Shown here piece by piece: positions 14,870-29,595 of a stretch of DNA of 64,000 bases; position 1 is the first letter of the stretch; every line of letters begins with the position of its first letter. Both the position numbers and the translations under genes were made by a program. The stretch lies in assembly GCA_002162685.1 (NCBI GenBank), contig MAAQ01000008.1, positions 1-64,000 of the forward strand, in the 5' to 3' direction. This stretch comes from Flavobacteriales bacterium 33_180_T64. GTDB taxonomy: Bacteria; Bacteroidota; Bacteroidia; Flavobacteriales; Flavobacteriaceae. A model generated the notes under the pieces. That model made no database searches, was not told the origin of the DNA, and was given only the letters and a program-made list of their open reading frames with translations.

Positions 14870-14909
14870 CAAGATGTATTAGAAATTCATTATAAAAGAT
14901 AATCAATTC

Positions 14910-14986
14910 GGGGTGTAGCGTAGCCCGGTTATCGCGCCACGTTTGGGACGTGGAGGCCGCAGGTTCGAATCCTGCCACCCCGACCA
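14910..14986 (+). tRNA. tRNA-Pro (anticodon UGG)
   Basis: The acceptor stem CGGGGTG pairs with CACCCCG, the anticodon stem CCACG with CGTGG, and loop TTTGGGA gives UGG. The T arm is GCAGGTTCGAATCCTGC. Discriminator A is followed by an encoded CCA (14984-14986). The 3' end of this gene is the insertion target of the island that follows. Confidence 0.97.
14968..14984 (+). other. Left attachment site (attL), in tRNA-Pro
   Basis: The 17 bases AATCCTGCCACCCCGAC of the T arm and acceptor end are repeated exactly at 29007-29023. An exact repeat of a tRNA 3' end, next to a tyrosine-integrase fragment, is the normal mark of an integrated element. Confidence 0.8.
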
Positions 14987-15007
14987 AAAGTAATATCAAT
15001 TACGACT

Positions 15008-15041
15008 AAAACCTTGTTAATCATATGATTAACAAGGTTTT
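15008..15041. repeat. Perfect 34-bp palindrome near attL
   Basis: Two 17-bp arms without spacer; the left arm is AAAACCTTGTTAATCAT and the right arm is its exact reverse complement, ending in TTTT. It lies 22 bp past tRNA-Pro. It may terminate the tRNA transcript or be part of the element's recombination end. Confidence 0.8.
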
Positions 15042-15083
15042 CTGGTTTTTAGACTATCATAAGAATTGATATTATATGATTTA

Positions 15084-15124
15084 ATTCGGTTCACAGTTTA
15101 CAAACTAAAAAGTGTGAACCGAAT
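15084..15124. repeat. 12-bp inverted repeat upstream of the integrase remnant
   Basis: Arms ATTCGGTTCACA (15084-15095) and TGTGAACCGAAT (15113-15124) are perfectly complementary around a 17-nt spacer. The position, between attL and the integrase start, fits an operator or an integrase arm-type site; this is a guess from position. Confidence 0.7.
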
Positions 15125-15202
15125 AACCACTTAAAATACTGTTTTTGAAATAGTTGATTTGACTTTCGTCTTGAATGAATGTTTAATTTAAAGACGACAA
15201 CT

Positions 15203-15408
15203 ATGCAATCACAAACCACCTTCAGTTTATCATTTTGGATAAACGCTACAAGAGCTATTAATAATTACTCTCCTGTCTATGCACGTATAACAGTAAACGG
15301 ACAGCGTTCAGAAATTAGCCTTAAAAGGAATGTCCTATTCAAAGAATGGGATAATACTAAAAATCGCGGATGAGGCACTTCTACTAAAATCAGAACCTTA
15401 AACAAACA
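15203..15408 (+). pseudogene. Tyrosine recombinase (integrase), N-terminal remnant
   Basis: Translation from the ATG at 15203 (an in-frame ATG also occurs at 15179) reads as the arm-type DNA-binding N-terminus of Bacteroidota phage-type integrases: MQSQTTFSLSFW, then YARITVNGQRSEISLKR and EWDNTKNRG. A TGA at 15371-15373 interrupts the frame. In the same frame, beyond it, the sequence GTSTKIRTLNKQ continues the usual family pattern, so the stop looks like a point mutation. After about 15408 the similarity ends, so the SAM-like and catalytic domains are lost. Both defects make it non-functional. It lies about 215 bp from tRNA-Pro, the normal place for the integrase of such an element. Confidence 0.8.
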
Positions 15409-15610
15409 AAGCTATTTTAAATACATAATAGCTTGTATTTGAGCGAATTGATAGCTAGTGACATCGCGCAGCGTGTTACCCTCTTGCTTTTCCTCTACAT
15501 TTGCAGAGTAAACTCCAATAGGAAAACAATTTGTAATTGCTATATAGTATCAAAAGCTACCTTTTATTAATTTTTTTTTAATTATTGCATTTACGCTTAT
15601 AACACGTATC

Positions 15611-15632
15611 AAAATAAAGGTTGTTATAACCT
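15611..15632 (-). terminator. Possible weak terminator of the island operon
   Basis: A 5-bp stem AGGTT / AACCT with a 5-nt loop is followed on the minus strand by a T-rich tract. It lies 8 bp after the last gene of the operon. The stem is short. Confidence 0.35.
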
Positions 15633-15639
15633 ATAACTT

Positions 15640-16440
15640 CTACTTGATTACTATCTTTTTTGTTGCGCTTCTTTTATTTGCAAATATTTTTAGAAAATAT
15701 ATCCCTGATTGCAAATGATTGACTTTTAGTTGCGAAGTTTCATTAGTACTTAAAACCTCTTTGCCTAGTACATTGAACACCTTTACTATCTCAATCTCTA
15801 TAGAGGAAGAAATATTAATAAATTCTGAAGCTGGATTTGGGTAAATAGACATATTCTTTAAAATGACAGTATCCTCGATACCTAAAACAGAGAAACTAAA
15901 ACTTTCCATGCCTGAGGCTAAACCTAAAAAATAGTTTTGGGTTGTGGTATTATCTATATTTGATTGAAAAAAACTATCTAAAGCATTAGAGGCATTCATT
16001 GCAATAGTTTCGGTATTTAATAAAAATCGCATGGTTCCTGTTGTTGGAGAATTACTCACATCAAAACTGACCAAATCTATTTGATCTCCTGTATTATGAG
16101 AAAGTAACGTTTGCCCTGGATCAAGAGTTATTAAAAAAGCATCTTCTGTACCATCACCTCCATAGTTAGCCTGAAGAATTGCTGCAGTAGCATTCGAATT
16201 AACTGCCCAAGGCCTTCCGCCTAATAAGCCTGTTAAGTTAGTAACATCTGCATTTCCATCTGGAAGCATTAATGTGAATCCTATGTTAGAAATGTCTGTA
16301 TTTCCAGATGACGTGAAATCTGGTATAGCAACGACTTTAAAAGTATGGTCTGTAATATGGACAATACCAAACTCATAGCCTTGTGAATAACTCAAGGTAG
16401 TAATTAAAAGGACTGTGATAAATGTGTACAATTTTTTCAT
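15640..16440 (-). CDS. T9SS-exported protein with cohesin-like domain
   Basis: A 266-residue protein: signal peptide (MKKLYTFITVLLITTLSYS-Q), one beta-rich domain of about 165 residues, and a type A T9SS sorting domain from about residue 195 (MSIYPNPASEFINI to KKIVIK). The middle domain (ISNIGFTLMLPDGNADV, then DAFLITLDPGQTLLSHNTGDQIDLVSFDVS) has the strand order and wording of cohesin-type beta-sandwiches often found in Bacteroidota T9SS proteins; this is a family impression. It is last gene of the island operon, 20 bp after the gene with a dockerin-like tail, which suggests the two proteins might bind each other. Exported and surface-anchored by inference. Confidence 0.85.
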   Translation of the reverse strand: MKKLYTFITVLLITTLSYSQGYEFGIVHITDHTFKVVAIPDFTSSGNTDISNIGFTLMLPDGNADVTNLTGLLGGRPWAVNSNATAAILQANYGGDGTEDAFLITLDPGQTLLSHNTGDQIDLVSFDVSNSPTTGTMRFLLNTETIAMNASNALDSFFQSNIDNTTTQNYFLGLASGMESFSFSVLGIEDTVILKNMSIYPNPASEFINISSSIEIEIVKVFNVLGKEVLSTNETSQLKVNHLQSGIYFLKIFANKRSATKKIVIK

Positions 16441-16460
16441 GATTTGTTGTTTTTTAGTGA

Positions 16461-17462
16461 TTAATTTTCTGGTGGCACAGTTGTGTTTATTGTAAATGTT
16501 GGGAAATTCAAAAAGTTTGCAGGATGTTGCAATACATTGTCTTTTATAATATTACTATCATCTCCTGATCCTGAAAATCGTCCAATTCCATCAAGATTTA
16601 CGTCCACATTTAAATAAGCTGTGGATGAATAGGTGATGAAATTTAAAAAGTTTCCTAAATCAGCAAGAATGTAGTCTTTAATAATATCTGCGCTACTTCC
16701 TGCACCTAGAAATTTTATTTGACTTGAATCATTTGTACTACCAGTCCAAAGTGCCATTACTCCAGAACCGACATCTACACGGGCATTACTGCCATAAGTT
16801 AAAAGTGCATTGTTTTTAAAATCTACAGAAGTTGTACTCGATTCAGATAAAGTCATAACAGTTGAAGTCATTGCGCCTAAATGATTTCTGTGTTTTACAA
16901 CTACATAATAATTGGTTGGTGCTGCGTTTATTTTTAAGGTTGATATTCCGTCTAAACCCACAATATCACCATCGCGCTGTAAAAGAACAGATTGTGCTCT
17001 CACAACTTTAGTATTGTCATTTGCTTGGCGAATTTCTAACCAAACCCAATCTACAATATCATCTTGTGCTAAACCTGTTCCAGAAGTTCCTCCTGTATTA
17101 AATACCGTTGAAACAACTGTTACTGCATCTGCATAAGGACTTGTAGTTGGTAAATAACTACTTGCTCTTAAATTATCATTCATCAATCCTACAGTCATTG
17201 GGTTTAATAAAGGGCCTTGTAAAAATACTTGTGGATTGATGTTTACTTTAAAATTGGTGTTTATAAATCCTTCAGAAACCGAAATTCCTCCAGCGTTTAA
17301 TTCTTGTACATTTACTTCGCCAATAGTATAGAGTATTTCTATGCCTCCAACTGTGGTTGCATCTCCTCCTGAGTCGATGCTATATTTCTCGATGGATTGT
17401 GCATGTCCATAAATTGAGCATAATGTAATCAAGAGAACTAACTGTATTTGTTTTGTTTTCAT
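16461..17462 (-). CDS. Secreted hemagglutinin-like protein with dockerin-like C-terminus
   Basis: The chosen start MKTKQIQLVLLITLC gives a signal peptide (cut near GHA-QS) and avoids overlap with the preceding gene; an in-frame ATG at 17492 would overlap it by 20 bp. About 333 residues. An N-terminal module (SIDSGGDATTVGGIEILYTIGEV, then SEGFIN) is common at the start of secreted Bacteroidota proteins annotated as hemagglutinin. Near the C-terminus a motif occurs twice: GAGSSADIIKDYIL with GNFLNF, and DVNLDG...GDDSNIIKDNVL with ANFLNF. The D-x-N-x-D-G loop plus helix resembles a dockerin repeat. There is no T9SS sorting domain, so partner-mediated attachment is plausible. Confidence 0.8.
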   Translation of the reverse strand: MKTKQIQLVLLITLCSIYGHAQSIEKYSIDSGGDATTVGGIEILYTIGEVNVQELNAGGISVSEGFINTNFKVNINPQVFLQGPLLNPMTVGLMNDNLRASSYLPTTSPYADAVTVVSTVFNTGGTSGTGLAQDDIVDWVWLEIRQANDNTKVVRAQSVLLQRDGDIVGLDGISTLKINAAPTNYYVVVKHRNHLGAMTSTVMTLSESSTTSVDFKNNALLTYGSNARVDVGSGVMALWTGSTNDSSQIKFLGAGSSADIIKDYILADLGNFLNFITYSSTAYLNVDVNLDGIGRFSGSGDDSNIIKDNVLQHPANFLNFPTFTINTTVPPEN

Positions 17463-17472
17463 AGTTTTTTTA

Positions 17473-18921
17473 TTAAAGTTTATAAATGACAAATTGAAAT
17501 CTCACAGGTGCTAAACTACCAGAACTGTTAAATATTCTAACTTGAATATCACCACCAACCATTCCATTAGATGAGGTTCTGAATGCTGTAGAATATGGAG
17601 TAATTATACAAAAAGTATTAAACGGAGTCATATATTCTCCACTAATGCTTATATCAAATACATTACTATTAATACTAGCAGTAAAATTACCTGTACCACT
17701 TAATACGTTACCAGTAAATTCTATAGTGCCATATGCTAGAGGTATTAAATTTGAAGATTCTGTTAAATAATTTGAGTCAGCATATTCTTTGGTTATTAGT
17801 GCTTTATCACCTGCTGTATTTATAAGATTATTAGTTAATGATGGCGCTGTAATAGTCCCATTTTTTAAAACCGTTAATGCGTTATTTCTATTAGAATTGC
17901 TTAGCCCATTACCAATAACAAAGAGCCTGTCATCTACATCCCAATCTATTGCGTTGTCTGGCGTGTAATTTGTATTATTCCTGCCAATTACAGTTTCTGC
18001 ATAGGATGGTGCTGTTGTATTGTATCCCATTGCTGTGGAAAAATCTCCTGAAGCGGTTGTATCACTTCCCATTGCTGTAGAAGCAACCCCTGATGCTGTT
18101 GTATTGAATCCCATAGCAGTGGAACGAGTTCCTGATGCTGTTGTATAACTTCCCATTGCAGTGGAACCAGCGCCTGATGCTGTTGTATAATTTCCCATTG
18201 CTGTAGAACTATATCCAGATGCCTTTGTAGCATCTCCCATTGCTATGGAAATAATCCCAGAAGCAGTTGTATAACTTCCCATTGCTGTAGAATTAATTCC
18301 TATGGCTCCTCGTCCAGTTGATGCTTCAGGTGATATACTTATATCTACTGCGTTTAAACCAATATTTCCATAATTTGCAGGCTCTGCACCAATCAATCGC
18401 CAACCATAGATGGGAAGTCCAGTTCCAGAATCTATGCTATCTGTAACTTTTTCTAAACCTGTAGGTAGTGTTGTTGGTTGGTTGGTTAAGTCGTTATAAT
18501 CGCCACTAAAAACATTGGCTGCTATTTCTGCGGTTTTGGCATGTTTTGCGTATGGTACTGCTTTAAACTCGGTAGCATCAAAGTTTATAGTTCCACCACT
18601 ATAAGTTACACTTGTTTGTAAAAAATGCAAGCCTGTTGCCCAATCTATTGCGGTAAATGTGCCTACACTTGGAGAACTGTCTGTACCAATAGTAAGTACC
18701 ACTAAACCGTTGGCGTTTGTTGTGTAATTGTGGTCTTCTTGATATACTATAGTTCCTGCTACTGTGCTTTGATGTATGGTAAATTGCACATTCATAAAAG
18801 TACTAGCCAATACATTGCCATTTGTATCTTTTAGAATAGCCTTATAATTAATTCCTTGCTGTGCAAAACTTGAAATTGGTATTAAAATAGAAATCAATAA
18901 TGTTATTAAAGTATTTTTCAT
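17473..18921 (-). CDS. Secreted protein with YadA-like head repeats
   Basis: 482 residues with a signal peptide (MKNTLITLLISILIPISSFA-Q). A domain of about 110 residues (QQGINYKA to TEFKAVPYAKHA) is shared with the S74 fibre protein of the same operon. Seven tandem 14-residue repeats of type STAMGxxTTASGxx lie at 211-308, the signature of left-handed beta-roll heads in trimeric adhesins. A second shared stretch (NALTVLKNGTITAPS) and a short C-terminal beta domain end the protein. There is no YadA beta-barrel anchor and no T9SS tail, so the way it is displayed is unclear. Trimeric assembly is inferred from the repeat type. Confidence 0.88.
   Translation of the reverse strand: MKNTLITLLISILIPISSFAQQGINYKAILKDTNGNVLASTFMNVQFTIHQSTVAGTIVYQEDHNYTTNANGLVVLTIGTDSSPSVGTFTAIDWATGLHFLQTSVTYSGGTINFDATEFKAVPYAKHAKTAEIAANVFSGDYNDLTNQPTTLPTGLEKVTDSIDSGTGLPIYGWRLIGAEPANYGNIGLNAVDISISPEASTGRGAIGINSTAMGSYTTASGIISIAMGDATKASGYSSTAMGNYTTASGAGSTAMGSYTTASGTRSTAMGFNTTASGVASTAMGSDTTASGDFSTAMGYNTTAPSYAETVIGRNNTNYTPDNAIDWDVDDRLFVIGNGLSNSNRNNALTVLKNGTITAPSLTNNLINTAGDKALITKEYADSNYLTESSNLIPLAYGTIEFTGNVLSGTGNFTASINSNVFDISISGEYMTPFNTFCIITPYSTAFRTSSNGMVGGDIQVRIFNSSGSLAPVRFQFVIYKL
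17998..18291 (-). repeat. Seven 42-bp tandem repeats encoding beta-roll units
   Basis: Seven units of exactly 42 bp, no spacer, encode STAMG(S/N/F/Y)xTTASGxx; the second unit is more diverged (SIAMGDATKASGYS). The near identity at DNA level makes copy-number change by slippage or recombination possible without breaking the frame. Confidence 0.9.
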
Positions 18922-18934
18922 AATAAGTTTAGTT

Positions 18935-20656
18935 TTAATTAGGTACGACTAAGATTTCCACTCGTCTATTTTTACTTCTGTTTTTATCAGAGTCGTTTTT
19001 TACCAATGGTTTGGATTCTCCATAACCTTTTTCAACCCATTTAAAGTTTATACTTGGTATAAATTGTCTTAATGTTTTAGATACGCTTTTGGCTCTTGCC
19101 AAAGACAATGCATTGTTTGTAGATTCACTGCCTACATCATCGGTATGACCTTCAACGATTACTTTACCTTTTTTTAGTACAGTAATACTATGTACTAATT
19201 CTTTTAAGGCTTCAATGCCTTCATGTTTTAAAACACTTTTCCCAGAATCAAATAGCACTTGACTATCAAGATTTAAACGCATGGCAGAGCCTATGGCAGC
19301 AATGGCATCTACATCGGCACCTGCTAAGGCACTTTGCTTTTTTAAGTCTGTAAGCCGCACGTAATAGAATAGTTCACCTTGTTTTACAAATTTTTCAATA
19401 TCAACCTCTGCAACACCGCCATCTATCTTGCCTACTTTAATCCATTTTTTACCATCTTTTGAGATTTCTAAATTGGTAGGTTCTATTTGTCCGATTTCAA
19501 AAATGTATAAATCAGGACCATTTACATTGGTCAGAGCATTATCTGTAAACTGTATAGTGAGGCTTCCGCCAAGTCCTAGACTGTGAATTCCTGTAATATC
19601 CTCTGGAAGAAAACCTTTGATTACATCTGGTTCGTGCAATACATTTTTTACTTGCTGGGTCATTAATTGTGGATGATTGACCTTTACTACCTTATCTGCA
19701 AATGAGAGTTTGCCTAAGGGTAGGTAGACCGCTTTTTGCATGTGGCCTACATAGGTTCTGCCAATTTCTTCCCCAAAGTATAAATCGGGATTAAGTTGTT
19801 GAAATTTCTTCTTTGCAGTTTTAGCCTTTCTAACAAAGCTTTTATGAAAAATTTTGACGATTTTTTTCCGATGCTCTATAGTTACTTTGTATTTAGGACT
19901 AACCTTTAAATTACCTGAGGCAATGTCTTTTTCTGTTTTATTAAGTTCAGCAAGCAGTTGTTCAGCTTCTTTTACGCTATGCATTTGCCCAGATATTTTT
20001 TTTAGTGTCTTGATTTTTTCTTCTTCTTCAGGGCTTGCTTTAACTTCATTTTTGCGCTCTACATCTCTCATTACATAAGCCGCTTCCTTCAGATCTAGCT
20101 GTTCCATAACATTGGTGCCAGCCAAAGAATCTATCTTTTTTAATTTGGCCATAGTAGCTTCTGGTCCTGATTCTGCTTGTACTAAAAGAATAGCTTCTTC
20201 TAAAGAAACACCAGTAGATGTATTTTTAGATGCCAATTGCGCTTTTGATATTTTTCCTTTTAGAACAGGATCGTCTTGTTGGGCTTCCTCTCTGTCTTTT
20301 ATTGCTTGTTGAGCAAGTACCTTAAGGCTGTCTGGATTGTTAACCAGTTTTTCCATTTCTTCACGAGAAACGCCGCTTTGCTCTAACATATCAAGTAATG
20401 AAGCCGTGTCAAAATGGATTCCTGATCCCTCATTTTTTTCAGACTCTTCTAGTAGGTCTTTACTCATATTAAGAAGGTTGTTTAATTCAGAACTAGAATC
20501 TTCACTTGAAGCATCAACAGTTTCATTTATTAAAACCTCTGAGTCTGGGTTCGTTTTAGAAGATGAATTCACATCAGCATCTTTAGGTTTTTCTGACTTG
20601 TTACCACAGGAATATGCAGCAAAGACAAGTACTAAAAGGAAAATTATTTTTTTCAT
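18935..20656 (-). CDS. OmpA-family lipoprotein
   Basis: 573 residues. Lipoprotein signal with lipobox AAYSC (Cys17), then a long charged, helix-rich region (about 25-330). A beta domain follows (LGLGGSLTIQFTDNALTNVNGPDLYIFEIG ... EISKDGKKWIKVG ... AGADVDAIAAIG), a discoidin-like module known from other secreted proteins. The C-terminal OmpA domain (about 460-573: GHTDDVGSE, ARAKSV, KNRRVEILV) is expected to bind peptidoglycan. The protein should therefore link the outer membrane to the cell wall and could serve as base for the fibre proteins encoded next to it. Spacing of 9 and 13 bp to its neighbours. Confidence 0.9.
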   Translation of the reverse strand: MKKIIFLLVLVFAAYSCGNKSEKPKDADVNSSSKTNPDSEVLINETVDASSEDSSSELNNLLNMSKDLLEESEKNEGSGIHFDTASLLDMLEQSGVSREEMEKLVNNPDSLKVLAQQAIKDREEAQQDDPVLKGKISKAQLASKNTSTGVSLEEAILLVQAESGPEATMAKLKKIDSLAGTNVMEQLDLKEAAYVMRDVERKNEVKASPEEEEKIKTLKKISGQMHSVKEAEQLLAELNKTEKDIASGNLKVSPKYKVTIEHRKKIVKIFHKSFVRKAKTAKKKFQQLNPDLYFGEEIGRTYVGHMQKAVYLPLGKLSFADKVVKVNHPQLMTQQVKNVLHEPDVIKGFLPEDITGIHSLGLGGSLTIQFTDNALTNVNGPDLYIFEIGQIEPTNLEISKDGKKWIKVGKIDGGVAEVDIEKFVKQGELFYYVRLTDLKKQSALAGADVDAIAAIGSAMRLNLDSQVLFDSGKSVLKHEGIEALKELVHSITVLKKGKVIVEGHTDDVGSESTNNALSLARAKSVSKTLRQFIPSINFKWVEKGYGESKPLVKNDSDKNRSKNRRVEILVVPN

Positions 20657-20665
20657 AATTGTTCA

Positions 20666-22264
20666 TTATTTATAAATTCTTGACGCTTTTAATGCTTCTA
20701 AAACACTAAACATCTGTGCTTCATATCCAGCTCTGCTATTAAACCTACCATTTGGACCTCCGTAACATGCGCTAATGCCTTCAAGATCTTCCTCCATTGA
20801 TGCTATATACCCATCAAATCTTTCATTATAAACTTCTGTTAACTTATCCATTGATGGTCTCACTTTATAAAGTAAAATGGGACCCCAGGCCATCCCTCCG
20901 CCACCAGGAAGCGCAGACATTGCGTTACCATATTCTATCCATTGATTTAAGACGGTTACTCTTCTCAAATAGTATTTTTGCATAAAATCAAAATAAGCAC
21001 GATGTTTGGAGAAAGCGAGTAATGTTCGCTCTAGACATCGTTGGCAAGCTTGTATGTCTTCACAATAAAGCAGCATTTCGCCACCGCCGCCATCATCTCT
21101 ATCATAATCTTCATCATCTTGTGACAATAAATCAACTTGCTGCTGTAATTGTTGCACTTGCCGTCTTAGCGCGTCTAATTCCTCCTGAGTTATATCAACT
21201 GGCAGTGTTCTTTGATCACCCTCAGTATTTTCTCCAGGGCTATCTTCTCCATAATTTGTGCTAAACTCTTCATCTGAGGCTCCCATTCTTCTTGTAAGGT
21301 CTTCAACGTCTTGAGGTGATAATTCTATAGAATCTGGATTGGATTCTATACGTACTGGCCTAGTTTCTATAAAAGTACCAGACTCATCTAGAGGTATTGT
21401 TACATTTGTATCACGAACACGTGGTTTAAGTATAGGAACTGTTTTTTGACTTTCCACATTTTGAGTACTGTATTCATAAAAAACTGGTGAATTTCCTTGT
21501 CCATCAACGGGTACTAGTTTAGGTTCAAGCATTTGTGCATAGCAAAATTGTGTTGAACATAAAAGGGTGAGTATTAGTGTCGTGTGTTTTTGGCTTTTTC
21601 TTTTTAATAAAAAGACAGCAAGAAGAATGATAATAATTGATAAAAGCCCTATAATAATATAGTTAAGCGCGCTATTACCTCCATTTGAATTATTGTTTTC
21701 TCCGCTTGAGGGGGCAGAATAATTTGAATTATCATCTTCAAAAAGCTGACCACTAAAGCCCATTCTTCTCATATGTCGCACATATTCCTCTTTGTTATCT
21801 GTTACACGAATTAAAGATTGGGTGGAGGGAAACTGTAAGCCTACTTTTACGGTAATTAAATATGGAATTCCAGCCACTTTAGAAGATACGCCTAGTCCTG
21901 CTTCATTCATAGTTCTAAAGATTTTGTCTACAAACTTATCTCCATTTGTAGAGATTTTAGACTCCACGATGTCCCACTTATTTTTATGAAAACTGAGGTC
22001 AATATTATGGTCTGGAGCTTTAGAAATGATCCTAACCATTACCGGAGATTTAATATCGAGCCCACTTATAACAAATCGTTGCAGAGAATCTAAGCCGCCA
22101 GTAGCCCATTCTATGGCACCGGCACGGGTACCATCTTTTAATTTTTTGAGTTTAATTTCATGTGTTATTACTTTTCCAAATGGATCTATTAATTGTGCGT
22201 TACCAATAAAAGTTATTGTTAAAAAGGCAAGAATTAATAACAGTTTTATTTTATGAAATTCCAT
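20666..22264 (-). CDS. Membrane protein of unknown family, two-part architecture
   Basis: 532 residues, not recognised. It has an N-terminal signal peptide (LILAFLTITFIGNAQ), an exported domain of about 150 residues (DPFGKVITHEIKLKKL to RRMGFSGQ), an Asn/Ser-rich linker and a strong membrane span (about 202-220, LNYIIIGLLSIIIILLAVF) with KRKSQK behind it. Then comes a second hydrophobic stretch that looks like another signal peptide (TTLILTLLCSTQFCYAQ). The second half contains a Gln-rich coiled coil (ELDALRRQVQQLQQQVDLL) and a Cys-containing helical domain (YCEDIQACQRCLERTL). It reads like two secreted proteins fused in frame. Its place in the operon suggests an envelope-spanning part of the same machinery. 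Confidence 0.8.
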   Translation of the reverse strand: MEFHKIKLLLILAFLTITFIGNAQLIDPFGKVITHEIKLKKLKDGTRAGAIEWATGGLDSLQRFVISGLDIKSPVMVRIISKAPDHNIDLSFHKNKWDIVESKISTNGDKFVDKIFRTMNEAGLGVSSKVAGIPYLITVKVGLQFPSTQSLIRVTDNKEEYVRHMRRMGFSGQLFEDDNSNYSAPSSGENNNSNGGNSALNYIIIGLLSIIIILLAVFLLKRKSQKHTTLILTLLCSTQFCYAQMLEPKLVPVDGQGNSPVFYEYSTQNVESQKTVPILKPRVRDTNVTIPLDESGTFIETRPVRIESNPDSIELSPQDVEDLTRRMGASDEEFSTNYGEDSPGENTEGDQRTLPVDITQEELDALRRQVQQLQQQVDLLSQDDEDYDRDDGGGGEMLLYCEDIQACQRCLERTLLAFSKHRAYFDFMQKYYLRRVTVLNQWIEYGNAMSALPGGGGMAWGPILLYKVRPSMDKLTEVYNERFDGYIASMEEDLEGISACYGGPNGRFNSRAGYEAQMFSVLEALKASRIYK

Positions 22265-22282
22265 AGTTTTTATTTTGATTGG

Positions 22283-22873
22283 TTACTTAAATAAATTATC
22301 AGTATCAGAATATCCAATATTCTCAAATTTTAAACCTGTTATGGTTAGGACTGCGTTTTCAAGGTTTTTAAGGTTTTCTTTTTCATAATTAATATTGAGA
22401 TTTTTTATTTCTGCGGTACCTGAAGCACTAGATGCATTCGATAAATCGATACTTCCAGACAGTTCACTTTCTGGATGACGTTTTCGCGTTTCAGGTTTTA
22501 GATCATAATAGCAGGTGAATAGACTACCATCTTTTTTTGGGAATTTTAATTGTAACGATGCGGCTATGAGTTGAAAAGTATCAGCATCATAAGTTAATTG
22601 AAGATGTTCACTGCCTTTTTCTAGTTTCTTTTTGAAGGTAATTAAAGCTGTACGTTTTTTAGTTTTTGCGTGTGTTGATAAAATGCCTGAAGCTTTAGTA
22701 TAAGCCCAATCTATATCGTTTATTTTACATAGATAAGTAGTATTGCCTTTAGGTTTTACATTGGTTGTAATTTCTGTTATTTCGTCCTTTACAGTTTCAT
22801 TGGTATCTTTTTTTGTTTCCGATTTACAGGCAACTAATAGTAGTATTGCAATGAGTATTATGTATTTATACAT
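22283..22873 (-). CDS. Small lipoprotein, unknown function
   Basis: 196 residues with a lipoprotein signal (LIAILLLVACKSE; Cys16). The mature part is mostly beta strands (WAYTKASGILSTH, RTALITFKKKL, AASLQLKFPKKDGSLFTCYYDLKP, ELSGSIDLSNAS, NAVLTITGLKFENI). I know no named family for it. It lies between the S74 fibre gene (13 bp upstream) and the 532-residue membrane protein gene (18 bp downstream), so it is surely cotranscribed with them. Confidence 0.8.
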   Translation of the reverse strand: MYKYIILIAILLLVACKSETKKDTNETVKDEITEITTNVKPKGNTTYLCKINDIDWAYTKASGILSTHAKTKKRTALITFKKKLEKGSEHLQLTYDADTFQLIAASLQLKFPKKDGSLFTCYYDLKPETRKRHPESELSGSIDLSNASSASGTAEIKNLNINYEKENLKNLENAVLTITGLKFENIGYSDTDNLFK

Positions 22874-22886
22874 GGCTGTTTATGTT

Positions 22887-25247
22887 TTAGTTATTAATTG
22901 CTTCGAGATTTTCTAAACGTTTTAATAACGCTGACATTTGATCTTCGAACGTGTCGATTTTTGTGTTTTGTGAACCTATAATGTTTTGCTGTTCTTGTAG
23001 TGCTTTTATAAGAATAGGAATGAGTTCTGTATAAGATAATGCTAACACATCTACTTCCTTATTATAGTAGACTATGCTTGGAAATAATTCTTGTACCTCT
23101 TGTGATATTAAACCTAAATTACGTTTGGTATCTGTTTGGTCTTTCATGAGGTAACTTACGGGTTTAAGTTGCATTACTTTTTCTAGAGTTCCGTTATTTA
23201 AAGATGTGATGTCTTTTTTTACTCTTCTGTCTGATGCTTGTACATAAGCACCGCTTGTAGCATTCCAAGAGCCTTTAAAAACTCCATTTCTATATAGGTT
23301 TAAGTAGCTAGTAGTATGAAACTGCCAAGCGTTATTAGTATCTGTATTTAAAACACTTAATGATTGGGATAATGCAGAACCATTTGTATGCGCGACTTCC
23401 AATAAACTAGCTGGTTGGTGTCTGCCAATACCAACCTTACCATTTTTTAAAACGGTTAAAGCATTGCTTCTAGAACTATTCTTCCCATTACCAATTTCGA
23501 ACAAAGGGTCTGTTTCTACCCAACTTAAAGTTGAACCTGGGTTATTAGGAACACCTGCATATCCACCACCAATATTAAGTCTCCCAATAGCAACTGACGA
23601 AAAAGATTCAGAAATAGTTCCAACTCCTAATGCTGTCGAATATATTCCAGATGCATTTGTCTCTATACCAATTGCGGTTGAATTTTTTCCAGAGGCAGTT
23701 GCATTTCTCCCAAATGCTACTGAATGCTCACCAGTTGCTCCACGAGTTGTTGATTGATTATGACTAACGCTTAAATCTACAGCGTCTTCACCTATATTTC
23801 CATGATTTGCAGGTTCTGTACCAATCAATCGCCAACCTATATTGCCTCCTTCAGTAATTTTTTCAAGGCCTGAATTACTAAGGTGGCTTAAACTTATAGA
23901 AGTATTTGAACTCCCATGACTTATACTTAAATTGTTTGTCGCTTGACTATAGGCAAAGGAATATTGGTAGTTGAAATCTGAGAACTCTTTTGTAACCAAT
24001 GCTTTGTCATCTATAATTTCTGCTATATCAAAACTTGGTGCAGTAATAGTCCCATTTTTTAAAACTGTTAAGGCATTGCTTCTATTACTACTATTTAAGC
24101 CATTGCCAATAACAAATAAACGATCTGTTGCTGTATCAGTTGGCGTGTAGTCTGTATTATATCGACCTATAGCGGTTTCAGAAGAAGATGGTGCAGTAGT
24201 ACTAACTCCTAAAGCTGTTGAAGCATAACCAGAAGCATTTGTTTCACTACCAGCAGCAAATGATTGACTTCCAAAGGCTATAGTTCCATTTCCAAAAGCT
24301 GTTGAATAGTTACCAATATTATCATAATTCCACTCATCACCTGCTGTAAATGAAACTTTACCTGCTCTAAAAGCGCCTTTTTGACCGCTAAAAAAGAATT
24401 TTACATCGTCGTTTTGTGTTGTTGGGTCATCATCAAATTGAGAATTACCAATAATAAAATCGACACCAGAGCCAAAACCTACATTTAGTGTTAAAGCATT
24501 TTTCCTTTCAGGACCACTTCCAACATCTGGAGATCCATTTCCTACAGCAAAAATTGTACTTGCGTTATCCACGTTATATGCTCCTAATGCTGTAGAATTA
24601 GCTCCACTTGCTATAGTACCATTACCCATAGCCATCGAATAAGAGCCTGAAACTTTTGTATTTAACCCTGCGGCAAAAGACGCAAAAGCTGTAGCTCCAT
24701 TCTCGTTTGTATTAATCTGCTGGTGGCTTAAATCTACAGCCCATTGTCCTGTATCTCCATAGTTATTTGTATCTGTATTTAACAATCTCCAACCTGTATT
24801 TCCATTTTCCGTAATTTTTTCTAAACCACTAACATTGGCTGCAGTTGTGGCATGCTTTGCATAAGGGACAGCCTTAAACTCAGTAGTTCCCATATCTTCA
24901 AAATTTAGTCCGCCAGTAATGTCTATTCCTACTTGTAGGTAATGCGAATGGCTCCTCCAATCTATGTCATTAAACAACCCATAACTTAAAGATTGTGTAC
25001 CTTCACCAATATTGGCAATGACGATACCGTTAGTATCAGTCATAACTGTATAATGGGTTTCTTGAGACTCAATATTGCCACCTGTAAGCGCATCTAATAT
25101 GGTAAACCGGATGGCTACATTTTGATTGCCAACTACATTTCCCAGATTGTCTTTAATAAGAGCTTTGTAATTAATGCCTTGTTGTGCCGTTGCTGTATAG
25201 GTTAGTAATAATACCAACCCTAAAATGAGATGCTTAGGTGTTTTCAT
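22887..25247 (-). CDS. Phage-fibre-like surface protein with Peptidase_S74 chaperone domain
   Basis: 786 residues with signal peptide (LILGLVLLLTYTATA-Q). The N-terminal domain (QQGINYKALIKD to TTEFKAVPYAKHA) is shared with the 482-residue head-repeat protein. The middle holds several beta-roll units (SMAMGNGTIASGANSTALGAY; NSTAIGIETNASGIYSTALG) and two copies of a GLEKITE...NTGWRL / NIGWRL segment. The C-terminal about 120 residues, from ASDRRVKKDI to LGLISQEVQELFP and a closing coiled coil, are a Peptidase_S74 intramolecular chaperone, which in phage fibres trimerises the shaft and then cuts itself off before the Ser of SDRR. Trimer formation and self-cleavage are inferred from the family. 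First gene of the island operon. Confidence 0.92.
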   Translation of the reverse strand: MKTPKHLILGLVLLLTYTATAQQGINYKALIKDNLGNVVGNQNVAIRFTILDALTGGNIESQETHYTVMTDTNGIVIANIGEGTQSLSYGLFNDIDWRSHSHYLQVGIDITGGLNFEDMGTTEFKAVPYAKHATTAANVSGLEKITENGNTGWRLLNTDTNNYGDTGQWAVDLSHQQINTNENGATAFASFAAGLNTKVSGSYSMAMGNGTIASGANSTALGAYNVDNASTIFAVGNGSPDVGSGPERKNALTLNVGFGSGVDFIIGNSQFDDDPTTQNDDVKFFFSGQKGAFRAGKVSFTAGDEWNYDNIGNYSTAFGNGTIAFGSQSFAAGSETNASGYASTALGVSTTAPSSSETAIGRYNTDYTPTDTATDRLFVIGNGLNSSNRSNALTVLKNGTITAPSFDIAEIIDDKALVTKEFSDFNYQYSFAYSQATNNLSISHGSSNTSISLSHLSNSGLEKITEGGNIGWRLIGTEPANHGNIGEDAVDLSVSHNQSTTRGATGEHSVAFGRNATASGKNSTAIGIETNASGIYSTALGVGTISESFSSVAIGRLNIGGGYAGVPNNPGSTLSWVETDPLFEIGNGKNSSRSNALTVLKNGKVGIGRHQPASLLEVAHTNGSALSQSLSVLNTDTNNAWQFHTTSYLNLYRNGVFKGSWNATSGAYVQASDRRVKKDITSLNNGTLEKVMQLKPVSYLMKDQTDTKRNLGLISQEVQELFPSIVYYNKEVDVLALSYTELIPILIKALQEQQNIIGSQNTKIDTFEDQMSALLKRLENLEAINN

Positions 25248-25254
25248 TATTTCG

Positions 25255-25404
25255 CTAATTTTTTTTGAACTTTGTTTTTTTTATTACTTTATTTTTATTT
25301 ATAATTTTTAAAGTGTAAACGCCTTTCTTCAAATTATTTACATTTATATATATATTATCTGAGGGTACAACTTGTAATTTTCCTTCATATTTTTTTTTTT
25401 TCAT
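25255..25404 (-). pseudogene. Orphan T9SS type A sorting-domain remnant
   Basis: A 49-codon frame, ATG at 25404 to TAG at 25255, too short for routine calling. The product begins MKKKK (from a run of 12 A) and continues with YEGKLQVVPSDNIYINVNNL, KKGVYTLKIIN and KVIKKTK, the second half of a type A T9SS sorting domain. An in-frame stop stands four codons upstream of the ATG, so no cargo domain remains. It ends 7 bp before the S74 gene start. Most likely it is the left-over 3' end of a deleted secreted-protein gene; translation is possible but not shown. Confidence 0.6.
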
Positions 25405-25476
25405 ATGAATGTTTTATTCCGTTTTTTGAATAAACTAAAATATTGGTAGTAAATGTATTACACTATAAATGGGAAG

Positions 25477-25515
25477 GTTGTAACTCATGTAACAAAAGTT
25501 ATAACTCATGTAACA
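25477..25515. promoter_or_regulatory. Direct-repeat operator upstream of the island operon
   Basis: Two 18-bp copies, GTTGTAACTCATGTAACA at 25477 and GTTATAACTCATGTAACA at 25498, repeat with a 21-bp period, two helical turns. Each holds two (T/A)GTAAC-like half-sites 9 bp apart. They lie between the regulator gene and the operon, about 230 bp upstream of the S74 gene. AraC-type regulators bind such direct repeats, so the neighbouring kinase/AraC protein is the likely binder. Confidence 0.6.
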
Positions 25516-25549
25516 TGGTTGAAAAAAGGAAAAAACCTGGTTGTATAAA

Positions 25550-25575
25550 AAGAAAAACCTCCTTAAAAAGGAGGT
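25550..25575 (-). terminator. Terminator of the hybrid regulator gene
   Basis: An 8-bp stem ACCTCCTT / AAGGAGGT with a 3-nt loop is followed on the minus strand by TTTTTCTTTTT. It lies 27 bp after the regulator stop codon, so the operon beyond it needs its own promoter. Confidence 0.85.
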
Positions 25576-25601
25576 CAATACTATAATGTATGTAGTAGAA
25601 G

Positions 25602-28559
25602 CTAACTTTTATTAATGTACTCTGTTGGTGTACAATGATACATCTCTTTAAAACATTTACTAAAATAGGCATGGTCATTAAAGCCAACACTATAACCAAC
25701 TTGAGACACATTGATTTTAGATTTTTTTAATAATTGTGCTGCTAGTTTTAAACGTTGAGAACGAATAAATTCTGTTGCCGATAACCCCGTTAATGCTTTT
25801 AGTTTTCTGTGTAATTGCATCCTGCTCATACCAAGTGTATTACTAAAATCTTCAATACTAAATGAAGATTCTATTAGTTTATTGTCTAATACTTTTTGCA
25901 AACGCTTTAAGAATTGTTCATCAATAGGTGTGATGGCAACATCTTTAGGTCTTAAAATTACTTCTTGACTGTAACGCAGTTGTAATTTTTTTCTAATTTC
26001 TATTAATTTTTCAACTCGTAAGTGCAATAATTCTTCATTAAAGGGCTTGGTTACATAATCATCTGCACCTGTTTTTACACCTTCAATTTTATTTTCTTCG
26101 CCTGCTTTTGCTGTGAGTAATATAATAGGAATATGACTTGTACGCTCGTCTGCCTTTAAGGTATTACATAGGTCAATTCCGTTTTTAATGGGCATCATAA
26201 TATCACTAATGATGATATCTGGTATATGCTCTATGGCTAAATCTACACCTTCTTGACCATCTTTGGCTTTTAAAATTGTATAGGTGCTTTTAAATAAATG
26301 ACTTACATATGTTCTTATATCGGCATTATCGTCTACAATTAATAAAATAGGATTTTCTTCTTTTTCTTCTACATCATTACCAATTTCAATAGTATTATAA
26401 GCTTGCTTGTCACTTATTTCTTGCTTAGATTTTATACTTACATCTTGAGATACAAACTCGTTTTTCGCAAAACTCTCTTTACCAATTGGGATGACTACTT
26501 TAAAAGTTGTCCAATCATTTGGTATGCTTTCAACGGTAATAGACCCTTTATGTAAAGCCACCAATTCTTTTACTAATGCCAAACCAATACCAACACCTTG
26601 AGCATTCTCATTGATTTGATAAAAACGTTCAAAAATAGTAGTAATATCTTCTTTAGATAATCCTTTCCCTGTATTTTTAACAGCGAAATGTAATGCGTTC
26701 TTTTTTATAGTAATATTACAAACAATAGCACCTTTTTCTGGAGTATATTTTATAGCATTTGAGAGTAGGTTTACTACTATTTTCTCCATAATATCGACAT
26801 CAAAATAGGTGTCAACTTCGGTAGGGTTATGATGTATTATATAATCTATTTCTTTTTCATGTGCTTTAAATGTAAACCCATCAGCTAACGAACCTATAAA
26901 AGGAGTCAACCTATTTTCAGAAACTTTTAATTGCAAATTGCCAGCTTCAATTTTTGAAATATCTAGTAGTTGATCTACCAAAGAGAGCAATCTAGTAGAG
27001 TTTCGATGCATCATTTTAAAGGTTGATTTATCCTCTTCCTTTAAATTGTCTTTTAGCAACTGACTTTGCAAGGGGCCAGAAATCATGGTCAATGGCGTAC
27101 GAAACTCATGTGAAATATTAGCGAAAAAATTTGACTTTGCCTTGTCTAACTCTTGTAACTTCTTTGTCGTTTTTTGACGATTACGGAATAAAAAGAAAAA
27201 GAACAAACCTGCCAAAGATGTTAATCCTGCAACTCCTAATAATTGATTACGTTGATTTTTTTGTTGTTGCTCAACCAATTCATTTTGAGATTTTAAAATG
27301 ACAATTTGTTGTTCCTTCTTTTCTGTTTGATATTTGGCTTCTAGTTCTTTAGTTATTGCAATATTATTCTTTTTATAGATACTATCATTAATCTGCAAAT
27401 AAAGTTGGCTGTACTTCAGAGCATTTTTATAATCCTTTTTTCCTATATAGGCATTAGTTAGTCCTTTCTTTACTTCTTTATTATGAGCAATAAAAAAATC
27501 ATTTTCATTTTTATTAATAATACCATAAGCTTTATTGAAAAAAATTATTGCTTTTTCATATTGCTTCATATCTAAATATAATTGACCTCCATTTAAATAA
27601 AAAGACACAAAATCGTCTTTACCTTCTGAGTTTATTAAATTTTCTTCAACGTCTTTTAAAACTATTTCTGCTTTTTTATAATCTCCTATTGCAGAATAAG
27701 AATTAATTAACCTAGTTTGTGAATCTATCAATCGAAAATCGTCTCCATAACCTTGGTAAAAAACTATTGCTTTTTCAAAATTAGAAATGGCTTGCTTATG
27801 TTCATCAATTGAGCTAAAGTAAATTCCTTTCAATATGTAGTTATAGCCAACTCCTTCTTTATCATTTAAGCGTTGATATATTTTATTACTTTTCTCTATA
27901 TAAATTATCGCTTTTTTATCCTTTATATCTGTGTAAATCGAGCCAATGTTATCATAACTATTAGCTAAAAATCGATCTTCTTCTTTATTTAAAGTGTAAA
28001 GTGAATCTGCTACTAAATAATATTTTAATGATAAATTAAAATCAGTCTTCTTATAAAATTGATTACCCAACATAATGTTAGATGAAGCTATTAGATGCCA
28101 ATCTTTTGTTTTATTAGCAGCTTCTAATGCTAATTTACCATACTTTTCTGCGTCTCCGTAATTGAAATTTCTGCTACTTAATATTGCCAATTTCCTATAT
28201 AAATCCGACTTTAGATTATTGTCTTCCAGTTTTAATGCAATACTAAGTGCCTTTTCAGTAAAATATAGAGAGCTGTCAAGCTGAGATTTATAATAATAAT
28301 ATCTGGAAGAAATGTTAAAAGTGTTGATTAAATCTTTTTCAGTTTTACTTGGAAGTTCTACAATTCTATTTTTATAAACCTTCGCAGAATCTAAATTAGT
28401 AAATAAATAGTCGTTAAAAATTTCAATTAAAACTTCTAATTTAATTTTGTTATCAATACTCTTACTTAACTCGATTTTTAAAGAATCTATTCTTTGTTTA
28501 TCTTGCCCAAAAGATGAAATTGATATAAATAGTAAAAGTAAGGTGGTTAAATATTTCAT
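25602..28559 (-). CDS. Hybrid two-component system: TPR sensor kinase, receiver and AraC domain
   Basis: About 985 residues from the chosen start MKYLTTLLLLFISISSFG (an ATG at 28574 would add five residues before the signal peptide). In order: signal peptide, periplasmic TPR-type sensor (about 40-420), coiled coil, membrane span (LLGVAGLTSLAGLFFFFLF), HisKA with phospho-accepting His484 (ANISHEFRTPL), HATPase (NLLSNAIKYTPEKG), receiver with phospho-Asp786 (ISDIMMP), and an AraC helix-turn-helix (FSNTLGMSRMQLHRKLKALTG; VSQVGYSVGFNDHAYFSKCFKE). It should turn an envelope signal directly into transcription control. The TPR sensor differs from the Reg_prop propeller of polysaccharide-type HTCS. 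Its own terminator separates it from the operon it probably controls. Confidence 0.95.
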   Translation of the reverse strand: MKYLTTLLLLFISISSFGQDKQRIDSLKIELSKSIDNKIKLEVLIEIFNDYLFTNLDSAKVYKNRIVELPSKTEKDLINTFNISSRYYYYKSQLDSSLYFTEKALSIALKLEDNNLKSDLYRKLAILSSRNFNYGDAEKYGKLALEAANKTKDWHLIASSNIMLGNQFYKKTDFNLSLKYYLVADSLYTLNKEEDRFLANSYDNIGSIYTDIKDKKAIIYIEKSNKIYQRLNDKEGVGYNYILKGIYFSSIDEHKQAISNFEKAIVFYQGYGDDFRLIDSQTRLINSYSAIGDYKKAEIVLKDVEENLINSEGKDDFVSFYLNGGQLYLDMKQYEKAIIFFNKAYGIINKNENDFFIAHNKEVKKGLTNAYIGKKDYKNALKYSQLYLQINDSIYKKNNIAITKELEAKYQTEKKEQQIVILKSQNELVEQQQKNQRNQLLGVAGLTSLAGLFFFFLFRNRQKTTKKLQELDKAKSNFFANISHEFRTPLTMISGPLQSQLLKDNLKEEDKSTFKMMHRNSTRLLSLVDQLLDISKIEAGNLQLKVSENRLTPFIGSLADGFTFKAHEKEIDYIIHHNPTEVDTYFDVDIMEKIVVNLLSNAIKYTPEKGAIVCNITIKKNALHFAVKNTGKGLSKEDITTIFERFYQINENAQGVGIGLALVKELVALHKGSITVESIPNDWTTFKVVIPIGKESFAKNEFVSQDVSIKSKQEISDKQAYNTIEIGNDVEEKEENPILLIVDDNADIRTYVSHLFKSTYTILKAKDGQEGVDLAIEHIPDIIISDIMMPIKNGIDLCNTLKADERTSHIPIILLTAKAGEENKIEGVKTGADDYVTKPFNEELLHLRVEKLIEIRKKLQLRYSQEVILRPKDVAITPIDEQFLKRLQKVLDNKLIESSFSIEDFSNTLGMSRMQLHRKLKALTGLSATEFIRSQRLKLAAQLLKKSKINVSQVGYSVGFNDHAYFSKCFKEMYHCTPTEYINKS

Positions 28560-28634
28560 AGTTAAGAGACTCATTTGCTAATTCTATAAATTTATGCAAT
28601 TATATGTAAATGAGTTATTTAAACTTATAATATA

Positions 28635-28653
28635 TGTAACCATTTTTGTTACA
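28635..28653. promoter_or_regulatory. TGTAAC inverted repeat upstream of the hybrid regulator
   Basis: TGTAAC and GTTACA face each other with 7 nt between. The minus-strand copy reads TGTAACAAAA, ten bases identical to 25488-25497 in the operon's operator. The site lies about 75 bp before the regulator start codon and may serve autoregulation. Confidence 0.5.
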
Positions 28654-29006
28654 AAATTTATAGATTATAAAAAAAAGCTGTTTTGTTGGTTTAAGCTTTA
28701 TTAAGATACGATAGACTTCATTTCATACTCATTAATTCAGAGTAAATCATTTTTTTTTTTTTTTTTTTTGATTAAAATTGATAATAAATTTAAAGACTAA
28801 AACCAGTTCTAATTGCAAGCAATTTTTAGATTTTAACAACTATATTCTGCTTACATTTTTAATCTACAAAGTGTAATTTTATTTATCTCTTTTTAATACA
28901 ATTTGTTTTTAAATAGTTCTTTTTGACTTTATTGTACAATTAGGTGAACATATATTGTTGAGAGTTTCTAAAATACTATAAAACAATGGGTTATGTGATT
29001 TTAATT
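28654..29006. other. AT-rich island end without genes
   Basis: Between the regulator's upstream region and attR I see no plausible coding frame, only AT-rich DNA with a run of 20 T (28750-28769). It probably holds the regulator promoter at its left and decayed island DNA otherwise. Confidence 0.5.
28750..28769 (+). repeat. Homopolymer of 20 T
   Basis: Twenty consecutive T in the gene-free stretch between the hybrid regulator and attR. It may be length-variable or a place of sequencing error. Confidence 0.9.
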
Positions 29007-29023
29007 AATCCTGCCACCCCGAC
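29007..29023 (+). other. Right attachment site (attR)
   Basis: AATCCTGCCACCCCGAC, identical to tRNA-Pro bases 14968-14984. The rest of the tRNA is absent here, as expected at the distal end of an element inserted into the tRNA 3' end. Confidence 0.8.
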
Positions 29024-29027
29024 TAAA

Positions 29028-29056
29028 AAAACCGAACATTTTGTTCGGCTTTTTTA
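29028..29056 (+). terminator. Probable original terminator of the tRNA cluster
   Basis: A 7-bp stem CCGAACA / TGTTCGG with a 3-nt loop, then a T run. It sits 8 bp after attR, with no gene in front of it on the plus strand. Joining attL to attR would place it directly behind tRNA-Pro. Confidence 0.75.
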
Positions 29057-29118: not shown

Positions 29119-29595
29119 TTATTCTATTCGTTTATAATTTTCAGCATAAATTCTATTGCCATCCTCATCAATTTCTATTTGACTAAATGAATTGCCATTA
29201 ATAATGAGTTCATGCTTAAATTCTTTTTTCTCTTGAATTATTTTACTCATCATATCTGATCCATATTCTAAGACTTCAATAAGCTCAGTTCCATTTACTG
29301 TATAACTTCCATAACCAAACCATTCAGAAGAATCTGCGGGAACTTGTTTGCTCCACATTACTTTTGACGGTGTATACATTTTTACCTGTCTATAGCCTTT
29401 ACTAGTTTTAAAAGAATCTATAACCTTATTATCCATGTAATTATAATAACCAACTAATTCCCAAGTCCCTTCAAGTGGATTAGAAATTTCAGTTTCCGAA
29501 GTGGCTATTTTAGGTTCTGATACTTCTTTTTCGGGCTTTTGATTACAGGAAAAAATCAACAATATAATTAAGAGAGACGAAATTGTAGCTTTCAT
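29119..29595 (-). CDS. Lipocalin-like lipoprotein, unknown function
   Basis: 158 residues with lipoprotein signal (LLIILLIFSCNQ; Cys17). The mature part starts with the motif NPLEGTWELVGYYNYMDN, typical of lipocalin-like small beta-barrels, followed by strands such as YRQVKMYTPSKVMWSKQ, WFGYGSYTVNGTELIEVLEYG and FKHELIINGNSFSQIEID. Ligand and role are unknown. It lies just outside attR and reads toward it. It is a single gene, divergent from trxB. Confidence 0.78.
   Translation of the reverse strand: MKATISSLLIILLIFSCNQKPEKEVSEPKIATSETEISNPLEGTWELVGYYNYMDNKVIDSFKTSKGYRQVKMYTPSKVMWSKQVPADSSEWFGYGSYTVNGTELIEVLEYGSDMMSKIIQEKKEFKHELIINGNSFSQIEIDEDGNRIYAENYKRIE

Follow-up and report, generated by a model that had tools for sequence, protein, structure and literature searches.

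A tyrosine-integrase element, probably decayed, at a flavobacterial tRNA-Pro(TGG) gene, with retained attachment sites and a regulator-linked operon for putative surface fibres

Several described systems resemble parts of the locus analyzed here. CIMEs, as defined in the excerpted text of PMC5704250, whose reference list includes Pavlovic 2004 and Bellanger 2011, have lost their integration and transfer genes and kept attL and attR. Among flavobacteria, the 10K genomic island of Riemerella anatipestifer is described in an excerpt of PMC6764341 as lying beside tRNA-Arg, with a tyrosine integrase that integrates and excises it and a circular form reported. For the cargo, the nearest description is that of fibre proteins with self-cleaving S74 domains, and the corresponding excerpt of PMC10769870 defines a MAT fibre family by a conserved domain, about 130 aa long, that follows the signal peptide, and by a trimeric fibre with an adhesive tip, with an S74 subgroup that has a C-terminal S74 domain containing an SDxxxK motif. 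Among the open-licence PMC papers listed, judged on title and abstract, no description was found of the tRNA-Pro element family considered below.

The window, a stretch of 64,000 bp of flavobacterial DNA, is read here with a probability of roughly 90% as containing a tyrosine-integrase element that inserted at tRNA-Pro(TGG) and decayed to a CIME-like island with a regulator-controlled operon for putative surface fibres. The target, the element ends and the native flank comprise the following features.

14909..14986, + strand: tRNA-Pro(TGG), the integration target (ARAGORN; same tRNA-Ser/tRNA-Pro neighbourhood in empty relatives)
14968..14984, + strand: attL core, 17 bp, exact, within the tRNA-Pro 3' end
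15008..15041, no strand assigned: perfect 34-bp palindrome between attL and the integrase (self match on the other strand)
15083..15125, + strand: arm-type sites, the direct arm AATTCGGTTCACA at 15083-15095 (+113 from the attL core) and the inverted TGTGAACCGAATA at 15113-15125
15203..15373, + strand: integrase relic, first 56 codons and then TGA (PF17293; similarity to intact integrases)
28936..28950, + strand: decayed attR arm site with 3 mismatches; the 13-mer begins 71 bp ahead of the attR core
29007..29023, + strand: attR core, 17 bp, exact, repeat of the tRNA-Pro 3' end
29028..29056, + strand: probable native tRNA-Pro terminator, displaced by 14 kb (by eye)
29119..29595, - strand: flanking gene for a 158-aa lipoprotein (lipo158), neighbour of tRNA-Pro in empty relatives

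The att 17-mer, AATCCTGCCACCCCGAC, occurs at 14968-14984 and 29007-29023 and bounds 14,039 bp, with no third site at up to 3 mismatches on either strand of the 64 kb. As none of 100 dinucleotide shuffles contained two matches to it, the suggestion made in the preliminary description, that an exact repeat of the tRNA-Pro end is unlikely by chance, holds. Across the whole genome one more exact copy is present, in a second tRNA-Pro (C18:86386-86402) that is directly followed by another tRNA-like sequence (by eye). Composition was rejected as evidence for a foreign island, as neither G+C (0.330 in the island against 0.333 and 0.309 in the flanks, i.e., no difference) nor third-position G+C separates the island from its surroundings.

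Comparison with the 22 other genomes of the genus (23 with the window's own) yields 12 empty sites, four with an insertion, three of another kind and three unclassed, and an empty site in 12 of 22 relatives together with a repeat of the tRNA 3' end at both borders is the signature of a tRNA island. In 11 of the 22, tRNA-Pro is immediately followed by a hairpin resembling a terminator and then by the gene for the 158-aa lipoprotein, the empty sites having about 32-120 bp between tRNA-Pro and the stop codon of the lipoprotein gene, and G030, from another genus, has the same empty arrangement. This is the joined configuration that the preliminary description proposed to look for in relatives, and its existence supports the proposed insertion of an integrative element into tRNA-Pro. 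The twelfth empty site, in G011, runs from tRNA-Pro through a hairpin/terminator to trxB, with no match to the 158-aa lipoprotein in that genome. Since a similar hairpin and T run directly follow tRNA-Pro in the empty sites (by eye), the hairpin at 29028-29056 is probably the displaced native terminator. The four relatives with an insertion at this tRNA-Pro or its att are G009 and G001, which have intact elements, and G003 and G010, which have one shared island. Inserts in G006, G007 and G015 were rejected as members of the same family, being located beyond the native terminator and having no second exact att copy. In G002, G016 and G021, which were left unclassed, lipo158 lies elsewhere than at tRNA-Pro on the stretches seen.

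The truncated tyrosine integrase recognised earlier at the tRNA end is confirmed by its coding part (15203-15370), in which 56 codons matching the Arm DNA-binding domain PF17293 (E 1.1e-8) are followed by TGA. Similarity of the relic to intact integrases stops near residue 68 of the 416-aa form, and the rest of the integrase has no match within the window element. The closest copy is that of G074 (75% over 56 aa); identity to the G009 copy is 68%. The left-end DNA is 76-84% identical to that of tRNA-Pro elements, and from the tRNA into the integrase its identity is 80% to G009 (465 bp) and 83% to G001 (373 bp). A palindrome similar to that beside attL, with at most 6 mismatches of 26, is found in 25 of the 32 integrase loci examined (a raw count), including all nine loci with at least 83% integrase identity. 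The arm sites conform to the spacing of the family: in all seven complete elements AATTCGGTTCACA lies at +113 bp from the attL core (one with 1 mismatch), as it does without mismatch in the window, and the attR arm lies at -72 bp (again one with 1 mismatch), compared to -71 bp and 3 mismatches in the window. In G001 one position of the attR core is mismatched as well. At up to 3 mismatches the arm 15-mer has exactly two + strand sites in the 64 kb, at 15081 and 28936, and free shuffling in a test on the right arm gave 2 of 2000. On the genomes compared, insertion by this tyrosine-integrase family at the 3' end of tRNA-Pro(TGG) is established.

Like a CIME as characterised in the excerpt of PMC5704250, the window element keeps attL and attR (the cores exact, the arm sites spaced as in the family, with 3 mismatches in the right one), retains no more of its integration gene than 56 codons and a TGA, and carries cargo. 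It differs in its kin, as the intact G009 relative has no recognised relaxase or conjugation gene in the backbone proteins scanned. The element resembles a CIME, a known kind of att-bounded remnant, and ICE or IME ancestry forms no part of the claim. The reported absence of transfer genes holds for the window proteins scanned but does not alone point to decay, since Pfam and PHROGs recognise no relaxase in the nine proteins scanned as backbone of the intact G009 element, and the label "domesticated" claims more than the open cargo reading frames and the two still intact att cores show. The Riemerella 10K island, as described in the excerpt of PMC6764341, is likewise a flavobacterial island at a tRNA and differs in its tRNA-Arg target, its 53-bp direct repeats and its intact integrase.

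Intact elements of the parent family measure 15-28 kb, and those of G009 (27.9 kb) and G001 (15.5 kb) both have a full-length integrase at tRNA-Pro. A search of 299 family genomes, with at most six candidates scored per genome, gives at least 8 loci whose integrase shares 83% or more identity with the G009 copy, or 10 with G009 and G001. Among the matches listed, 10 of 10 such integrases (at least 83% to the G009 copy, G009 counted) abut tRNA-Pro(TGG). Most of the more distant loci examined (55-70%) lie at tRNA-Pro, -Arg, -Asp or -Lys, and two of this class show no tRNA on the stretch seen. The seven complete members share the order integrase, slot 1, RteC, HTH protein (92 aa, excisionase-like), 229-aa protein (shorter in some), DnaC-like ATPase (220 aa), slot 2, 80-aa protein, DUF5675 protein, 251/261-aa right-end protein, 65-aa protein and attR, with names taken from scans of the G009 copies (PF09357, HTH_17, phrog_50, PF18925). 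Apart from the integrase start, no backbone gene is detected in the window element at E 1e-3, nor a 261-aa protein in the window genome at E 1e-30.

Both slots hold further genes. Those between the integrase and RteC (slot 1) are varied surface, transport and metabolic genes (by eye). Behind the ATPase, a PADLOC scan of 10 slot-2 proteins from five elements recognises Gabija GajA/GajB in G197a, AbiEi in G185 and a type II methylase in G201, with weaker matches to REase_II and PDC-M62A in G009 and no match at 1e-5 for four proteins of G074. Slot 2 of G074 (L139:4173-10340) and of G224 holds a four-gene module, whose 1083-aa protein we take, by eye, to resemble an SMC/Wadjet-type ATPase.

The right-end protein (in G009 L033:16113-16895, starting MAKQTGIIKLKGTIGG) is 86-97% identical in six other tRNA-Pro elements, has no Pfam or PHROG match, and serves as a handy marker of the element family. 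At E 1e-30, 79 of 397 Flavobacteriaceae genomes contain a match to it; among 101 of its loci examined, at least 51 are in genomes with a listed integrase, at least 31 on the same contig and at least 25 within 60 kb, the searches for this protein and for the integrase having sampled different genome sets. Between G009 and G224 the identities are 97% for the 261-aa and HTH proteins, 92% for the ATPase and 45% for RteC, while trxB of G224 is 67% identical to that of the window. By the contrast between the 261-aa protein and trxB, elements of the parent family have crossed genera, and by the low identity of RteC in the same pair the backbone is mosaic. Plasmid p1 of Marivirga sp. BKB1-2 (NZ_CP129969.1, L142; another order), a circular record of 25,320 bp, has backbone relatives of about 37-60% identity in the order DUF5675, 261-aa, 65-aa, integrase, HTH, 229-aa and ATPase, with RteC not detected at E 1e-3 and with the integrase and ATPase split over frames in the record. 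As the right end of the element is there joined to the integrase region, p1 may be an excised circle of a related element rather than a true plasmid. A phage or satellite origin gained no support from single-protein queries suited to close relatives, which confirmed no relative of the integrase or of the 261-aa protein in viral_contigs, and among phages and plasmids the 261-aa protein matched no phage and one plasmid record.

Within the window, the cargo between the repeats consists of a regulator and seven further genes.

15640..16440, - strand: secreted protein with a T9SS type A sorting domain (PF18962, TIGR04183)
16461..17492, - strand: secreted protein of 343 aa, N-terminus like a T9SS protein of the island in G003 and G010
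17473..18921, - strand: fibre-type protein with YadA-head repeats (PF05658)
18935..20656, - strand: OmpA-domain lipoprotein, recurrent operon core (domain scan and relatives)
20666..22264, - strand: g5, 532 aa, recurrent operon core (relatives)
22283..22873, - strand: 196-aa lipoprotein, often in the same operon elsewhere
22887..25247, - strand: fibre-type protein with YadA-head repeats and a C-terminal Peptidase_S74 (PF13884, E 1.3e-14)
25602..28574, - strand: hybrid two-component regulator, 990 aa, with TPR, HisKA, HATPase, receiver and AraC HTH

An operon for secreted proteins inside the repeats, as first described, is evident in the seven genes, which are spaced by -20 to +20 bp, lie downstream of the regulator at a distance of 354 bp, and run opposite to the integrase in the order S74/YadA-head protein, 196-aa lipoprotein, g5, OmpA lipoprotein, YadA-head protein, 343-aa secreted protein and T9SS protein. 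The regulator combines kinase, receiver and AraC DNA-binding domain on one chain, the defining arrangement of an HTCS. The protein g5 matches no family above cut-off and has no solved relative, and the N-terminus of the 343-aa protein is 49% identical to the T9SS protein of the G003/G010 island and weakly similar (E 0.005) to one in G185. The fibre protein at 22887-25247 has the SDxxxK motif at residue 672 and with its PF13884 domain shows the hallmark of the S74 subgroup, with no S74 domain found in that at 17473-18921. It shares with the MAT fibres of Bdellovibrio, as presented in the excerpt of PMC10769870, the C-terminal S74 domain with SDxxxK and the presence of an S74 and a non-S74 protein side by side, and differs in its flavobacterial host and in the adjoining hybrid two-component regulator. 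The MAT N-terminal model NF053851 matches the window fibre at E 2.2e-4 with 21.1 bits, far below the cut-off of 60.

Related regulator, g5 and OmpA genes, sometimes with the 196-aa lipoprotein, occur together in G120 and G234 (other genera), on L090 (a MAG), on L092 and L094 (Winogradskyella) and on the Croceitalea-labelled L093; the contig of MAG L095 ends inside g5, and G094, from another genus, has g5 and OmpA with no regulator match. None of these relatives adjoins tRNA-Pro on the DNA seen, which is short for L090 and L095. Since g5 is present in one of the 23 genomes of the genus, the window's own, and in 16 of 299 genomes of the family sample at E 1e-3 (four nearly full length, the window included), the operon has a patchy distribution, looks foreign to the genus and is not bound to this element. 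An intact element that does carry similar cargo is that of G185, where a LytTR response regulator, two histidine kinases, a small T9SS protein and two S74 proteins lie between the integrase and RteC, the first S74 protein aligning with that of the window over the N-terminus and S74 end (34% over 311 aa). It is the only one of 10 tRNA-Pro loci with full integrase to give a fibre-protein match, G197a, G197b and G060 being partly covered.

A parallel case is the island of G003 and G010 at the same tRNA, which also carries a hybrid regulator (distant, about 40% identity to that of the window), an S74 protein and a T9SS protein. As about 9.5 kb of this island is 98-100% identical between the two genomes, compared to 76-91% for the flanks (250-bp windows), it is judged to have been shared recently between these species. 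Its sharing, with no match to the G009 integrase at E 1e-3, would be consistent with islands of this kind still moving, driven either by integrases that act in trans or by recombination between homologous tRNA flanks. As an account of the window element this is on balance unlikely, as the G003/G010 island is a different one, with no att copy recognised at its right edge, and the window's own genome offers no close helper integrase (none matching that of G009 at E 1e-60). In both G010 (L034:8180-8400) and G003 (L036 reversed, 8068-8290) a second, partial att copy follows the one in tRNA-Pro after about 134 bp. It is exact in G003, has one core mismatch in G010 and is followed by attL-side-like sequence; the high island identity begins at this copy. 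A site-specific route for the transfer was not adopted, given that no right att copy was found and that a single base is all that differs in the tRNA and the 55 bp after it. A single old insertion giving rise to both hybrid-regulator islands was likewise rejected, as the regulator tree, with moderate support, does not join them. The tree places the window with L095 and L090 (support 87/97 and 84/85, below the starred level; long branches make its deeper part unsure), and since it keeps the window apart from G003/G010 it favours separate acquisitions.

Entry of the operon into an existing remnant by a separate, later event would accord with its direction against that of the integrase, with the closest regulators found (L095 and L090) not being seen beside tRNA-Pro, and with only a distant regulator in the G003/G010 island at the same tRNA; it is quite improbable, as the stretch after the integrase is where complete elements hold variable genes and as G185 holds similar cargo there, some of it also reversed. 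That the locus is an old chromosomal operon, with a repeat made by duplication of a tRNA fragment or by homologous recombination and no integrative element involved, would agree with its flank-like G+C and with related operons lying away from tRNA-Pro, but it is scarcely credible: the joined sites of the 12 relatives and the arm sites in effect refute it for the insertion itself, an integrase relic lies with both arm sites at the spacing fixed in the family, and g5 occurs in none of the genus's 22 other genomes.

Under the preferred reading of an integrase-mediated insertion followed by decay, integration left a complete tRNA at the left end and pushed the terminator and lipoprotein gene 14 kb away. 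One or more deletions would then have taken the greater part of the integrase together with the stretch from RteC to the 65-aa right-end gene, so that attL, attR, the two arm regions and a single cargo block remain. Such a remnant should not excise alone, and its ends could still serve a related integrase acting in trans, or one acting in cis once a second element has entered the same tRNA. The TPR hybrid regulator would sense a signal and switch on the seven-gene operon, the predicted products being two trimeric fibres (of which one would mature through its S74 domain), an OmpA-type lipoprotein tethered to peptidoglycan, the 532-aa envelope protein, a lipoprotein and T9SS-exported proteins, with a likely role in attachment or surface recognition. 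Counted against this reading are the 3 mismatches of the attR arm, the at best 75% identity of the relic, the unchanged G+C, the mosaic backbone, the operon relatives away from tRNA-Pro and the fibre match in G185 only of 10.

The ties of this fossil to living relatives extend down to arm-site spacing, so that the event can be reconstructed rather than guessed, and intact elements in the same and other genera show what the remnant used to be. The data suggest that tRNA-Pro elements bearing phage defence genes can also transport flavobacterial fibre operons, which probably encode attachment factors. Tentatively, and with the odds somewhat against so broad a statement, the window could be a fossil of a widespread flavobacterial tRNA-targeting family, undescribed in the literature searched, with two cargo slots, of which the slot beside the integrase would hold surface, transport or metabolic traits (including fibres under two-component control) and that behind the ATPase anti-phage functions. 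If so, attachment fibres and phage defence would be exchanged among flavobacteria as a single package, with stranded copies persisting as att-bounded cargo for later arrivals to pick up.

A further observation concerns the two tRNA-Pro loci, as the left neighbour of the G001 element is that of the other tRNA-Pro locus. In G001 (L098, L084) the arrangements are HD-domain gene/tRNA-Ser/tRNA-Pro/tRNA-Arg and sugar dehydrogenase/tRNA-Pro/element/trxB, and in the window genome (C1, C18) they are tRNA-Ser/tRNA-Pro/element/lipoprotein/trxB and sugar dehydrogenase/tRNA-Pro/tRNA-Arg-like sequence. The different partners of the two loci suggest chromosome rearrangement via the tRNA-Pro copies.
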